From assembly GCF_003391335.1 (NCBI RefSeq), contig NZ_CP028374.1, forward strand, positions 248,001 to 312,000: a stretch of 64,000 nucleotides of DNA, in the 5' to 3' direction. Numbering within the stretch: the stretch's first letter is position 1; each line of letters starts with the position of its first letter. Both the position numbers and the translations under genes were made by a program. Positions 345-64,000 of this stretch are shown here, in pieces. The stretch comes from Candidatus Purcelliella pentastirinorum (GTDB lineage: Bacteria; Pseudomonadota; Gammaproteobacteria; Enterobacterales; Enterobacteriaceae). The notes beneath the pieces were generated by a model. It did not search any database. It was not told the DNA's origin and worked only from the letters and a program-made list of their open reading frames with translations.

Positions 345-1216
345 AAAATTTTTTTTAACCAATTTAATTTATTTCTTAATATATCGAAATAATTATAATT
401 AAGAGATATATAAAATTAACACTATAATTAGTACGTTTTATTAAAATATGTAAATTATTACCAATTAATAACCTTATATCTTTGTTATCACAATAAATTT
501 TAAATAGATATTTAGATCTATTTATGTATAAATCAATAATAATTAACACTAATAATAATTGGTCTAGTAGAAAAAATATGAAGAAAAATAGATAATATAG
601 ATATAACATTTAATAAGGGTAAAATAATAAAATCTCCAACTGATAAAAAGTAAAAAGTAAAAACTGTAGATATAGAAACAATTAAACCATCTAATTGCTG
701 TGAAAAAGCAAAACATTTATCTATAAAAACTTTATGTTTAATCATATGAGCAATTTTATTAGAATATAATATTAATTCATAATAATATCATAACCCAAAA
801 AATTATTTTTTTCATATACAGATATTTCTAACATAAATCTTCTATCTAAAATAAATTTACTATCTAATACATTAATTAAATCTTGTTTATAATTAATTAA
901 ATTTAAATCAGTTAAAAAACCTAAATCATCTTATATTTATACCAACAACTTTAATATTATATTTTAATAACACTTTTAAAACCCTTAACATACTAAAATC
1001 ACCAACAACAACTATAGCTAAATCATAAAATTTTCCTATCTTAAATAAACTTATTATCTTAATAACTCTTCTTAAAGATAATATAGAAACTGTTTTTTTC
1101 AAAAATTACTTTATACCTAAATTAATTAACCAATAAAATAGTTTTTTCATATATACCTAATGAATTAAAAAATCTAGTAATTACTATAATACCAATATAA
1201 TTACATTTGATTTCAT
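345..1216 (-). pseudogene. nadK: nadK pseudogene (NAD kinase), several frameshifts
   Basis: The minus strand carries most of NAD kinase in order but in shifting frames. Pieces seen: an N-terminal YIGIIVITRFFNSLG; then DLAIVVVGDFSML where the family has VVGGDGNML; then IKVVGINI and LGFLTDLN; then FIDKCFAFSQQLDGLIVS (533-745); then YCDNKDIRLLIGNNLHILIKR (376-609); and a C-terminus NKLNWLKKIF ending near 345. At least five frame changes or stops separate these pieces. The GGDGN loop is altered, and the TPTGSTAY substrate loop has become STVFTFYF. NadK phosphorylates NAD to NADP. Its position between smpB and grpE is the enterobacterial one. Two short open frames here are fragments of this gene, not separate genes. 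Loss of function is a firm inference. Confidence 0.92.
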
Positions 1217-2662: not shown

Positions 2663-3796
2663 ATGAAAAAAGTAATAATAGCTATGTCAGGAGGAGTAGA
2701 TTCTTCAGTTTCTGCATGGATTCTTAAAAACAAAGGATATCATGTAGAAGGATTATTTATGAAAAATTGGGAAGAAGATGATAATAAAAATTATTGTAAT
2801 TCAAAAAAAGATCTTCAAGATACTGAAACAATATGTGAACAACTAAAAATTAAATTACACAAAATGAATTTCTCAATAGAATATTGGAATAATGTCTTCA
2901 AGAATTGTATTTCAGAATATAAATTAGGAAAAACACCAAATCCTGACATAATATGTAATAAAGAAATAAAATTTAAATTATTTTTAAAATTTGCATTAAA
3001 TAAAATGAATGCAGATTATATAGCAACAGGTCATTATGCAAGAACTAAAATAATAAATAAAAAATACTCTTTACTAAAAGGAATAGATAAAAAAAAAGAT
3101 CAAAGTTACTTCTTATATACAATAAAAAATTATCAAATTAAAAAAATATTATTTCCAATAGGACATTTAAAAAAAATAGAAGTAAGAAAAATAGCAAATA
3201 AACTTAATTTCATTAATGCAAATAAAAAAGATTCAACCGGAATTTGTTTCATAGGAAAACGTAAATTTATAAATTTTATAGAAAAATATATACCAAACAA
3301 AATAGGTAAAATAATAGACATAAACAATAATACCATTGGAAAACATAAAAATGCAATGTACTATACATTAGGTCAAAGAAAATGGTTAGGAATAGGAGGA
3401 ATAAAAAATAAAAAAAATAGTCCATGGTATGTAATAGATAAAGATATTAAAAAAAATACATTAATTGTAGACCAAAATAGATATACACCATATTTACAAT
3501 CAAAAAGTTTAATTTTAAATAAAATACATTGGATAAATAAAGAAAAAATCAATTTAAATTTAGAGTATGAAATAAAAGTAAGATATAACCAAAAAAGTAC
3601 AAAATGTAAAATTAAAAAAAAAAAAAATAAAGAAATTAAAGTTAAATTTAAAAATCCAATAATAGCAGTTACACCAGGACAATCAATTGTTTTTTATTTT
3701 AATGATATTTGCTTAGGAGGAGGTATAATAAAAAAAAATATACCAATAAAGAAATATAATATTAAAATTAACAATTATTCAAAAAATATAAAATAA
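2663..3796 (+). CDS. mnmA: tRNA-specific 2-thiouridylase MnmA
   Basis: MnmA puts sulfur on U34 of the tRNAs for Lys, Glu and Gln, using ATP and sulfur relayed from IscS/Tus proteins. The PP-loop motif SGGVDSS is at residues 9-15. The two catalytic cysteines are C98 (NPDIICN) and C195 (STGICF). The 377-residue length is close to that of E. coli (368). MnmG, encoded in this window, modifies the same wobble base. In enterobacteria the order is mnmA-hflD-purB; here hflD is gone and purB follows. The C-terminal 50 residues are Lys/Asn/Ile-rich, like other plus-strand genes in this half. Confidence 0.95.
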   Translation: MKKVIIAMSGGVDSSVSAWILKNKGYHVEGLFMKNWEEDDNKNYCNSKKDLQDTETICEQLKIKLHKMNFSIEYWNNVFKNCISEYKLGKTPNPDIICNKEIKFKLFLKFALNKMNADYIATGHYARTKIINKKYSLLKGIDKKKDQSYFLYTIKNYQIKKILFPIGHLKKIEVRKIANKLNFINANKKDSTGICFIGKRKFINFIEKYIPNKIGKIIDINNNTIGKHKNAMYYTLGQRKWLGIGGIKNKKNSPWYVIDKDIKKNTLIVDQNRYTPYLQSKSLILNKIHWINKEKINLNLEYEIKVRYNQKSTKCKIKKKKNKEIKVKFKNPIIAVTPGQSIVFYFNDICLGGGIIKKNIPIKKYNIKINNYSKNIK

Positions 3797-33061: not shown

Positions 33062-34198
33062 ATGACATGGAAATATTTAAGTGATAAAAATCCATGGAAA
33101 AATAAAAAAAATAAAAAAAATATTCTTAATAACGAAGAAAACAATATATTATTATTTCTCAAATATATAAAAAATAAAATTAATATTAACAAAAATAAAA
33201 TAATAAAAACTATAGTAATATTAATATTAAGTATATGGATAATTAATGGATTTTATATAATTAAAAAAAATGAAAAAGGAGTATTAATTAGATTAGGTAA
33301 ATTTAACAAATTAATAAATTACGGAATACATTGGAAAATAACACCAATAGATAAAATATTAATATTTGATAAATCAAAAATATATAAAATAGGTATTTCA
33401 AAAACAGAAATAACTTCTGATAAGAATATAATAAATATAAAAATTATTACAAAATATAAAATAATAAATCCCAAAAAATACCTATACACAATAAAAAACA
33501 TAAATAATTATATAAAAAACTCTATAGAATCAATTTTACTAAAAACAATAACAAATTATAACACTAAAAAAATATTATCTGTAAATAATAATACAATAAA
33601 AAATTCAATTTCAAACAAAATAAAAATTTTTTTTATAAAAGAAAATATAGGTATTAAAATAGAAAAAATTAATTTTAAATATATTCAACCTCCTGAGAGA
33701 ATAAAAAAACTATTTAATGATACTAAAATAGCTAGAAAAAATAAAAAAATATGTATAAATAATGCAATAAATTACGCAAATAAATTAAAAATAAAAACAA
33801 ATTATAAAATTATAGATATTATAAATAAATCAAAAATATATAAAAATAATATTATCAATAAAGCAGAAAAAGATATGATAAATTTTAACAAAATTCTATC
33901 AATATATAAAATATCACCCAAGATAGAAAAAAAAAAAATATATATTGAAACAATGGAAAAAATATTAAAGAAAACATCTAATGTTATAAGCAATAATAAA
34001 AATATATTTATATTACATATCAAAAATAAAAAAAATAATATCAAAAATAAAAAAAATAATATCAAAAATAAAAAAAATAATATCAAAAATAAAAAAAATA
34101 ATATCAAAAATAAAAAAAATAATACACTAAATAATACAATAAATCAAAGATCTTATAATATATCTCGTATTAATAATCGTAAAATTAGGGATAAATAA
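33062..34198 (+). CDS. hflK: HflK, SPFH-domain regulator of FtsH
   Basis: HflK and HflC form a membrane cage around the FtsH protease and modulate its activity. The N-terminus MTWKYLSDKNPWKN is the HflK type, one membrane segment lies at about residues 47-65, and the SPFH domain begins EKGVLIRLGKFNKL. The domain is heavily drifted toward Lys/Asn/Ile, but YIQPPERIKKLFNDTKIARKNKK keeps the family end of the SPFH region. The C-terminus carries five exact 7-residue repeats, listed separately. It has 378 residues (E. coli 419). A Shine-Dalgarno AAGGA lies upstream, and hflC starts 1 nt after the stop. Confidence 0.88.
   Translation: MTWKYLSDKNPWKNKKNKKNILNNEENNILLFLKYIKNKININKNKIIKTIVILILSIWIINGFYIIKKNEKGVLIRLGKFNKLINYGIHWKITPIDKILIFDKSKIYKIGISKTEITSDKNIINIKIITKYKIINPKKYLYTIKNINNYIKNSIESILLKTITNYNTKKILSVNNNTIKNSISNKIKIFFIKENIGIKIEKINFKYIQPPERIKKLFNDTKIARKNKKICINNAINYANKLKIKTNYKIIDIINKSKIYKNNIINKAEKDMINFNKILSIYKISPKIEKKKIYIETMEKILKKTSNVISNNKNIFILHIKNKKNNIKNKKNNIKNKKNNIKNKKNNIKNKKNNTLNNTINQRSYNISRINNRKIRDK
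34019..34123 (+). repeat. Five exact 21-bp tandem repeats inside hflK
   Basis: Five adjacent identical copies of a 21-bp unit, beginning ATCAAAAATAAA, encode (Ile-Lys-Asn-Lys-Lys-Asn-Asn)5 near the C-terminus of HflK. The unit length is a multiple of three, so copy-number changes keep the frame. It looks like a slippage- or recombination-generated array in a low-complexity tail. Confidence 0.95.
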
Positions 34199-48835: not shown

Positions 48836-49184
48836 ATTTTTAATTATTTTTATATTTTGTTTGAAATAAATAATTTTATATTTATTATAAATTAATTTAT
48901 TTCTTTATATTTATATATTTTTTAATTTTTTAATTTTTTATTTATTATTTTTTGTATATGAGGTTATTATATGGATATCTATTTATTGTTCAATAATAAT
49001 TTTTTAAATTTTTTATTTTTTAATATTTATTTTTTACTGAAATAATATTTTATTTTAATTATAAATTTTAGTAATTTATTTAAAATTAAAAGTTTTATTT
49101 TTTAATGTTTTATTTATTTTTTTGATTTTTTGTATTTATTTTTTTATATTTTTATTTAGAGAAATATTTTATAGGATATATCTT

Positions 49185-50129
49185 ATGTCAAAATATAGTA
49201 AATTAATAATTTTAGGGTCAGGACCGGCTGGATATACTGCTGCTTTATATTCATCTAGAGCAAATTTAAATCCTATAATTATTACTGGTTTAAATAAAGG
49301 TGGTCAATTGACAACAACAAATAATATTGAAAATTGGCCTGGTATAATTAATCCAATATCAGGAACTGATTTAATGAATAATATGCATGATCATGTAAAA
49401 AGATTTAATGTTGAAATTATTTATGATCATATAAGTTCAGTTGATTTTTCTTCTAAACCTTTTTTTTTGCAAGGAGATTACCAATCATATATTGCTGATT
49501 CTGTTATTGTAGCTACTGGAGCCAATCCTCGTTCTATAGGTATATCATCTGAAAAACGCTTTTTAGGTAAGGGTGTTTCTAGTTGTGCAACATGTGATGG
49601 TTTTTTTTATAAAGGAGAAAAAGTTGCTGTGATAGGTGGTGGTAATGTTGCTATAGAAGAGGTTTTATATTTATCAAATATATGTAATCATGTATATTTG
49701 ATTCATCGTAGAAATTATTTTACTGCTGAAAAGATTTTATTAGATCGTTTAAATATTAAAATAAAAGAAGGTAAAGTTACGGTTTATTTTAATTATATTT
49801 TATATGAAATATTAGGTAATGACAATGGTGTTAATGGTATTTTAATCCATTCATCTAAAGAAAATAATAATGATTTAAAATTAGATATTTCTTGTGTATT
49901 TATAGCTATTGGATATATTCCTAATACTAAGATTTTTTCAAAACAATTAATTTTAGAAGATGGTTATATTAAGGTTAAATCTGGTTTATATGGTTTTTAT
50001 ACGGAAACTAGTATTAGTGGTGTTTTTGCTGCTGGTGATGTTATAGACAGGGTATATCGACAAGCAGTAACGTCAGCTGCAACTGGTTGTATGGCAGCAT
50101 TAGATGCTGATAAGTATCTGAATATTTAA
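49185..50129 (+). CDS. trxB: Thioredoxin reductase
   Basis: TrxB reduces thioredoxin with NADPH via FAD. The ATG at 49185, with AGGA upstream, gives 314 residues (E. coli 321); the open frame extends further upstream without homology. The FAD fold is ILGSGPAGYTAALYSSRA, and the redox pair is C134/C137 in SCATCDGFF. The NADP fold is VIGGGNVAIEEVLYLSN, with HRRN for the 2'-phosphate. The end is GVFAAGDVIDRVYRQAVTSAATGCMAALDA. Its need for NADPH is notable because nadK is broken in this same window. Confidence 0.96.
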   Translation: MSKYSKLIILGSGPAGYTAALYSSRANLNPIIITGLNKGGQLTTTNNIENWPGIINPISGTDLMNNMHDHVKRFNVEIIYDHISSVDFSSKPFFLQGDYQSYIADSVIVATGANPRSIGISSEKRFLGKGVSSCATCDGFFYKGEKVAVIGGGNVAIEEVLYLSNICNHVYLIHRRNYFTAEKILLDRLNIKIKEGKVTVYFNYILYEILGNDNGVNGILIHSSKENNNDLKLDISCVFIAIGYIPNTKIFSKQLILEDGYIKVKSGLYGFYTETSISGVFAAGDVIDRVYRQAVTSAATGCMAALDADKYLNI

Positions 50130-63055: not shown

Positions 63056-63372
63056 ATATTTTTAATGGTTTTATTGAATATTTTATTTAATTTTTAGTAA
63101 TTATTATTTTTTGATTTAAAATTTTTACATGTATTTTAAGGATTTAATGTTTTTTTTATTAAGATATTATTTATAAGATTTTTTTAATTTTAAGTTTTTT
63201 ATTTTATTAAGTTTAATTTGATTAGTTATTTTTTTTAAATTATATATAATATTCTTTTTTTATATTTTATCCATTTAATTTTAACTAAATATATTATTTA
63301 TATAATAGAAATTGTATTAAGTATTATTTTTTTTAAAAATTGTTTTTTACTAATATTGAAAGTATAATTTAT
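63056..63372. other. Non-coding gap between glpD and folD
   Basis: About 315 bases, T-rich on the plus strand, with no open frame, RNA gene or visible gene remnant. It should contain the folD promoter, but I cannot pick out convincing -35/-10 elements. Confidence 0.5.
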
Positions 63373-64000
63373 ATGATAGCAAAGATTATTAATTGTAAAT
63401 TTATAGCTGATGATATTTTATCAAAGGTTATAAAAAAATTATCTTTTTATCAGGAAAATAAAATACGTTCTCCTCGTCTTGATGTAATTTTAGTTGGCGA
63501 TGATATAGCTTCTAATTTATATGTAAAGAATAAATATTTGGTTTGTAAAGATATTGGTATTATTTGTAATATTCATAAATTTTCTAATTTTGTTAGTGAA
63601 AAAGAGTTATTATTTTTAATAGATAAGTTAAATAATAATATTAATGTAGATGGAATATTAATTCAATTACCTCTTCCTAAAATTATTAATACTGTTAAAA
63701 TTTTAGAAAATATATCTATTTTTAAAGATGTTGATGGATTGAATCCTTATAATATTGGTTGTTTATATTTTAATAAATCAAAATTACGACCTTGTGCATC
63801 TAGTGGTGTTATTAGTATCATTAAATATTTAAATATTAATACATACGGTTTAAATGTTGTTATTGTAGGAGCTTCTGATATTGTTGGCAAACCTATAGGT
63901 ATAGAATTATTATTAATTGGTTGTACTGTTACTATTACGAATCGTTATACCAATAATTTGCGTTTTTATTTAAAGAATGCAGATTTATTGATTGTTGCTA
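63373..64000 (+). CDS. folD: Methylene-tetrahydrofolate dehydrogenase/cyclohydrolase FolD (runs off the right edge)
   Basis: FolD interconverts methylene-, methenyl- and formyl-tetrahydrofolate, using NADP. The window holds about 209 of roughly 285 codons. MIAKIINCKFIADDILSKV matches the E. coli start. LYVKNKYLVCKDIG contains the catalytic Lys, and DGILIQLPLP, KDVDGLNPYNIG and VVIVGASDIVGKPIGIELL (NADP fold) are all present. The frame is intact to the edge. It supplies folate one-carbon units to ThyA, MnmG and formylation of initiator tRNA. Confidence 0.96.
   Translation, partial: MIAKIINCKFIADDILSKVIKKLSFYQENKIRSPRLDVILVGDDIASNLYVKNKYLVCKDIGIICNIHKFSNFVSEKELLFLIDKLNNNINVDGILIQLPLPKIINTVKILENISIFKDVDGLNPYNIGCLYFNKSKLRPCASSGVISIIKYLNINTYGLNVVIVGASDIVGKPIGIELLLIGCTVTITNRYTNNLRFYLKNADLLIVA

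Follow-up and report, generated by a model that had tools for sequence, protein, structure and literature searches.

A nadK pseudogene in a reduced insect symbiont that retains NADP-dependent enzymes

The nadK relic, its neighbors, and its age

The window analyzed here is the stretch of 64,000 nucleotides at bases 248,001–312,000 of the single-contig genome of Candidatus Purcelliella pentastirinorum (G000; 479,855 bp, 99.3% complete, 21.2% G+C), and positions given below are those of the window unless genome positions are specified. We compared it with the genome of a sister congener (G001; 483,447 bases), which is collinear with it in large blocks at ∼90% nucleotide identity. On the minus strand near the start of the window lies a full-length relic of nadK (343–1216), recognized by alignment to the intact sister gene and by a profile match. 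Its downstream neighbor on the same strand, smpB (2–190; ORF and sequence reading), is cut by the window edge and is intact in the whole genome as a 152-residue ORF. On the plus strand, divergent from nadK as it also is in the sister, is grpE (1281–1910), delimited by ORF and alignment and identified by sequence reading; its true start is probably downstream of 1281.

The sister has an intact nadK (G001:C1:228-1109), syntenic between smpB and grpE, whose 293-residue product retains GGDGN, NE, and TSTGSTAYSLSVGGP and aligns from end to end with the solved NAD kinase 2an1 (E 4.5e-89). The closest solved structures for NadK (ATP-NAD kinase, PF01513) are 2an1 and 4hao; the relic next to grpE is a full-length homolog in which the reading frame and the GGDGN, NE, and TSTGSTAY motifs are destroyed. 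Relative to the sister gene, the alignment places ∼9 frame-shifting indels within 0.87 kb (−1 at codon 3, +1 at codon 24, −1 at codon 34, −2 at codon 41, +1 at codon 95, −4 at codon 145, −2 at codon 227, −1 at codon 274, and −2 at the stop), along with one in-frame insertion (+3 at codon 49), and the single ∼290-residue ORF expected of a functional NadK is absent. Substitution as well as frame shifting has converted GGDGN, which is invariant in 12 intact NadK relatives, to VGDFS, NE to YE, and the loop TSTGSTAYSLSVGGP to ISTVFTFYFLSVGDF, the TSTGSTAY (TxTGSTAY) segment now reading ISTVFTFY. Even so, a profile of the 12 intact NadKs still picks out the relic at E 5.2e-49, across 23 stops, so its NadK identity is not a product of chance; the Pfam NAD_kinase model (PF01513) scores it at 20.4 bits in a whole-genome search. 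The locus is a genuine nadK pseudogene, dead in function. An earlier note on this DNA had correctly placed the NadK segments in order on the minus strand from 1216, the relic ending at ∼343, and was right that the frame is broken, although its count of at least five frame changes was too low against the ∼9 events found here; the alteration that it described of the GGDGN and TPTGSTAY loops is borne out by alignment to the sister, where NE proves to be lost too.

Among 390 intact ortholog pairs of the two genomes, median dN is 0.040, median dS is 0.248, the largest dN is 0.100, and median dN/dS is ∼0.17. The nadK relic exceeds all 390 pairs in dN (0.112–0.116), with a dN/dS of 0.41, and its substitutions are spread nearly flat over the three codon positions (32/35/42). 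If constraint was ordinary before the loss (dN/dS 0.166), and if half of dS accrued on this branch, nadK would have been without constraint for roughly 59–69% of the branch since the sister split, so that the lineage would have been living without NadK for a long time. The gene is long dead and not yet deleted, rather than freshly breaking; the earlier description of an NAD kinase gene “caught in decay” holds for the decay itself, but not for its recency, given that constraint has been absent for most of the branch.

Several of the indels sit in runs of A or T, as could happen if an intact nadK had been broken by errors of sequencing or assembly where the DNA is A+T-rich, and the NadK genes of two relatives (G153 and G210), frameshifted with their motifs intact, could be such errors. 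Errors of this kind would, however, have had to concentrate nine frameshifts in 0.87 kb while ∼390 other genes remained frame-intact against the sister. Moreover, they are unable to explain motif residues lost through substitution, a dN above that of every intact gene, and a codon-position bias that is nearly gone, and we accordingly give this account almost no weight.

Retained NADP enzymes and the search for a substitute kinase

To our knowledge, no enzyme other than NadK produces NADP(H), and it is normally essential. The window genome has neither NadK nor NAD synthase, yet it contains NADP-dependent enzymes. Ten NADP(H)-linked proteins were found intact with NCBIfam models (TrxB, FolD, FabG, Zwf, Gnd, FolA, CysJ, CysI, Fpr, and RibD); the dN/dS values of their genes, 0.11–0.35, are within the range of other genes, and the ten remain under purifying selection. 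Two of them lie in the window, as the earlier note had it, and both are intact and selected: trxB, for the NADPH-dependent thioredoxin reductase (49122–50129, plus strand; dN/dS 0.18), and folD, for the NADP-dependent methylenetetrahydrofolate dehydrogenase/cyclohydrolase (63340–64000, plus strand, continuing to genome position 312,233). A full oxidative pentose phosphate branch for NADP+ recycling is present, made up of Zwf, Pgl (named by reading), and Gnd.

NADP might no longer be needed, if these enzymes have switched to NAD(H) or are decaying in their turn. FabG and TrxB are indeed substituted at positions that contact the 2′-phosphate in the E. coli enzymes, and CysJ is relaxed; yet the same FabG and TrxB residues occur in the sister, which keeps NadK, and purifying selection on Zwf, Gnd, FolD, FabG, and RibD is of ordinary strength, which makes the dispensability of NADP improbable. 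We also considered that cofactor specificity had shifted once nadK was lost, and rejected this, the checked NADP-site residues being equal to those of the sister: NADP-site motifs including SRDQ...K.YIQ of CysJ, NRT of Gnd, and HRR of TrxB are identical in the two genomes. CysJ, which forms the NADPH subunit of sulfite reductase (genome positions 70117–71913), has the highest dN/dS of the ten (0.35, 96th percentile), even though supplying cysteine is considered one of the main tasks of this symbiont; the relaxation could indicate that one of the NADPH users is being lost.

No second NadK turned up when the 479,855-base genome was searched with the Pfam model, the 12-sequence profile, and tblastn using the sister NadK; these retrieved only the relic and one weak match, a second gene was rejected, and the intact nadK elsewhere that would have contradicted the decay proposed in the earlier note did not appear. 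The weak match to PF01513, 13.5 bits, falls within a 328-residue frame that is the ortholog of PfkA (named from its sequence). As the sole other match, and a member of the same fold superfamily, PfkA could be imagined to have taken over NAD phosphorylation, but most relatives give a comparable weak match in a frame of ∼320–360 residues, PfkA has an ordinary dN/dS of 0.16, and neither the profile nor tblastn turned up another NadK-like gene. We regard a takeover by PfkA or another enzyme as very improbable, and the earlier suggestion of another NAD kinase finds no support, the one other match being that in PfkA.

An NAD kinase protein, host-encoded or laterally acquired, might instead be brought into the symbiont, or NADP might come from a partner symbiont. 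Insects do have genes for a cytosolic and a mitochondrial NADK (PMC6675116), but there is no sequence sign of protein import, and the partner symbionts of such hosts have far smaller genomes (∼136 and 157 kb; PMC12505427). Enzyme delivery and partner supply are both, in our judgment, unlikely.

Cofactor-gene loss between the sisters and the supply of NADP

NadE (NAD synthase) was not found in either sister genome by a PF02540 search. The matches in the window genome were rejected as NadE, their proteins being MnmA and GuaA; mnmA (2663–3796, plus strand, identified by sequence reading) accounts for the weak false match at genome positions 250633–251208. With no NadE in either genome, NAD or a late precursor must already come from outside, and NAD synthase, absent in the sister too, was gone before nadK was lost. 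The step to NADP import is therefore smaller than the earlier note supposed.

Genes of coenzyme A synthesis differ between the sisters in the same way as nadK does. In the window genome coaE is a pseudogene (genome positions 122282–122828; dN 0.118) with two frameshifts and five nonsense codons, a decay comparable in degree to that of nadK, and coaD (genome positions 371751–372251) is older wreckage than either; both genes are intact in the sister. Genes read as bioA, bioF, bioC, bioD, bioH, pdxA, and pdxJ are likewise intact in the sister (its positions 412772–424840, 130255–131256, and 351417–352136) and lost from the window genome, where a BioB-like frame, also named by reading, remains alone. 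PMC12505427 describes Purcelliella of cixiid planthoppers as having genomes of ∼480 kb with 21–22% G+C and with sulfate-to-cysteine and riboflavin genes, bioB standing by itself in one lineage and the biotin and pyridoxine pathways being complete in another. The size, G+C content, and retained sulfate-to-cysteine and riboflavin genes match the window genome, and the lone BioB-like frame and the congener with biotin and pyridoxine genes match the sister pair. A scan of genome contigs using Ung returned matches from distant bacteria only.

NADP is a large, charged molecule, and with NadK lost and the NADP enzymes kept, symbionts such as this one must obtain it elsewhere. The best explanation, to which we assign a probability of about 0.65, is a dead nadK pseudogene combined with ready-made NADP(H) from the host, a supply on which dozens of other reduced symbionts lacking nadK would seem to draw as well. 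Of the explanations offered in the earlier note, import of NADP(H) best fits the dead gene, the searches that found no substitute, the retained NADP enzymes, and the loss of NadE; uptake of NADP itself from the host bacteriocyte cytosol is the part that we infer. Finished NADP(H) would pass from that cytosol into the symbiont on top of the existing dependence on NAD, and NadK would be made redundant by the phosphorylated cofactor itself crossing the envelope. The death on this branch of coaE, the gene for the last step of CoA synthesis, may have had the same cause, with CoA also taken up finished. Since Zwf and Gnd would recycle NADP+ to NADPH inside the cell, only the small NADP pool lost to growth and dilution would need replacing. 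We know of no characterized bacterial NADP uptake system. A search for the NTT/TLC transporter family (PF03219) gave no match in the window genome, but control genomes were equally silent, which makes the search uninformative.

There are partial precedents. A model of the cedar-aphid Buchnera requires imported NAD+ and CoA (PMC5702781); this symbiont, like the window genome, has kept NADPH-using enzymes while losing cofactor synthesis, and differs in that an intact sister gene allows the NAD kinase loss in the window genome to be dated. Rickettsia takes up host NAD+, which replaces NAD synthesis as in the window genome, but it retains NAD kinase and so produces NADP+ itself (PMC5615194).

Losses also run in the other direction between the sisters, since HldE-, GmhA-, and endonuclease III-like frames are intact in the window genome (genome positions 239557–240966, 224996–225631, and 177541–178176) and missing in the sister. 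Elsewhere in the window, GrpE (1281–1910) has a long Lys-rich N-terminal stretch, where the sister has an expanded tandem repeat, and an HflK-like protein (33062–34198), whose dN/dS is high at 0.38, carries KNKKNNI repeats at its end.

NadK loss across the family

The earlier note implied that the loss of NadK is singular, which does not hold: a NadK match is absent from 46 of the 392 genomes of the family. Nearly all of these are reduced symbionts of 0.2–0.9 Mb, the exceptions being an incomplete assembly (G339, 73%) and a 2.7-Mb genome (G135), and both NadK states occur within the window genome’s genus and within genera g97, g116, g155, and g71. The window genome, whose dead relic still gives a PF01513 match, is included among the 45 small NadK-less genomes considered here. 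Intact FolD is found in ∼38 of these 45, and Gnd in 29, so NadK is commonly lost while NADP enzymes are kept.

Intact CoaE is present in 24 of 35 small genomes that have NadK and in none of the 45 that lack it (n = 80; Fisher p 2.6e-12), and the association persists among genomes up to 600 kb (13/22 versus 0/33; p 3.4e-7), these p-values being ones that ignore shared ancestry; the contrasts within genera are better support. CoaE and NadK change together in g1, g97, g155, and g71, while in g116 CoaE has gone first. RibF failed as a control for the CoaE link, as it is also depleted where NadK is missing (4/45, versus 27/35 with NadK), so the link of NadK is to loss of cofactor-completing steps generally and not to CoaE alone. 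NadE shows a similar depletion (2/45 versus 19/35), and among the three only CoaE is strictly nested with NadK (0/45).

The apparent order of cofactor-gene loss is thus NadE and CoaE first, with NadK late. We tentatively suggest, as a possibility that we hold to be rather less likely than its opposite, that reduced insect symbionts share a late state in which they receive finished nucleotide cofactors, CoA and then NADP, from the host through a common route, with NadK never lost before CoaE but either later or at the same time, and that this genus displays the step within one sister pair. With a sister pair differing in nadK and coaE, plus dozens of NadK-less relatives, NADP entry becomes a testable question. 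The case is a good, datable example of a recurrent and little-discussed loss; it is not unique, represents no new type of system, and belongs to known reductive evolution; no direct report of nadK loss in symbionts was found in openly accessible papers. The frameshifted NadK genes with intact catalytic motifs mentioned above (L175 in G153, and L174 and L178 in G210) are possibly newer losses or assembly errors, and G153 also carries a broken CoaE fragment.
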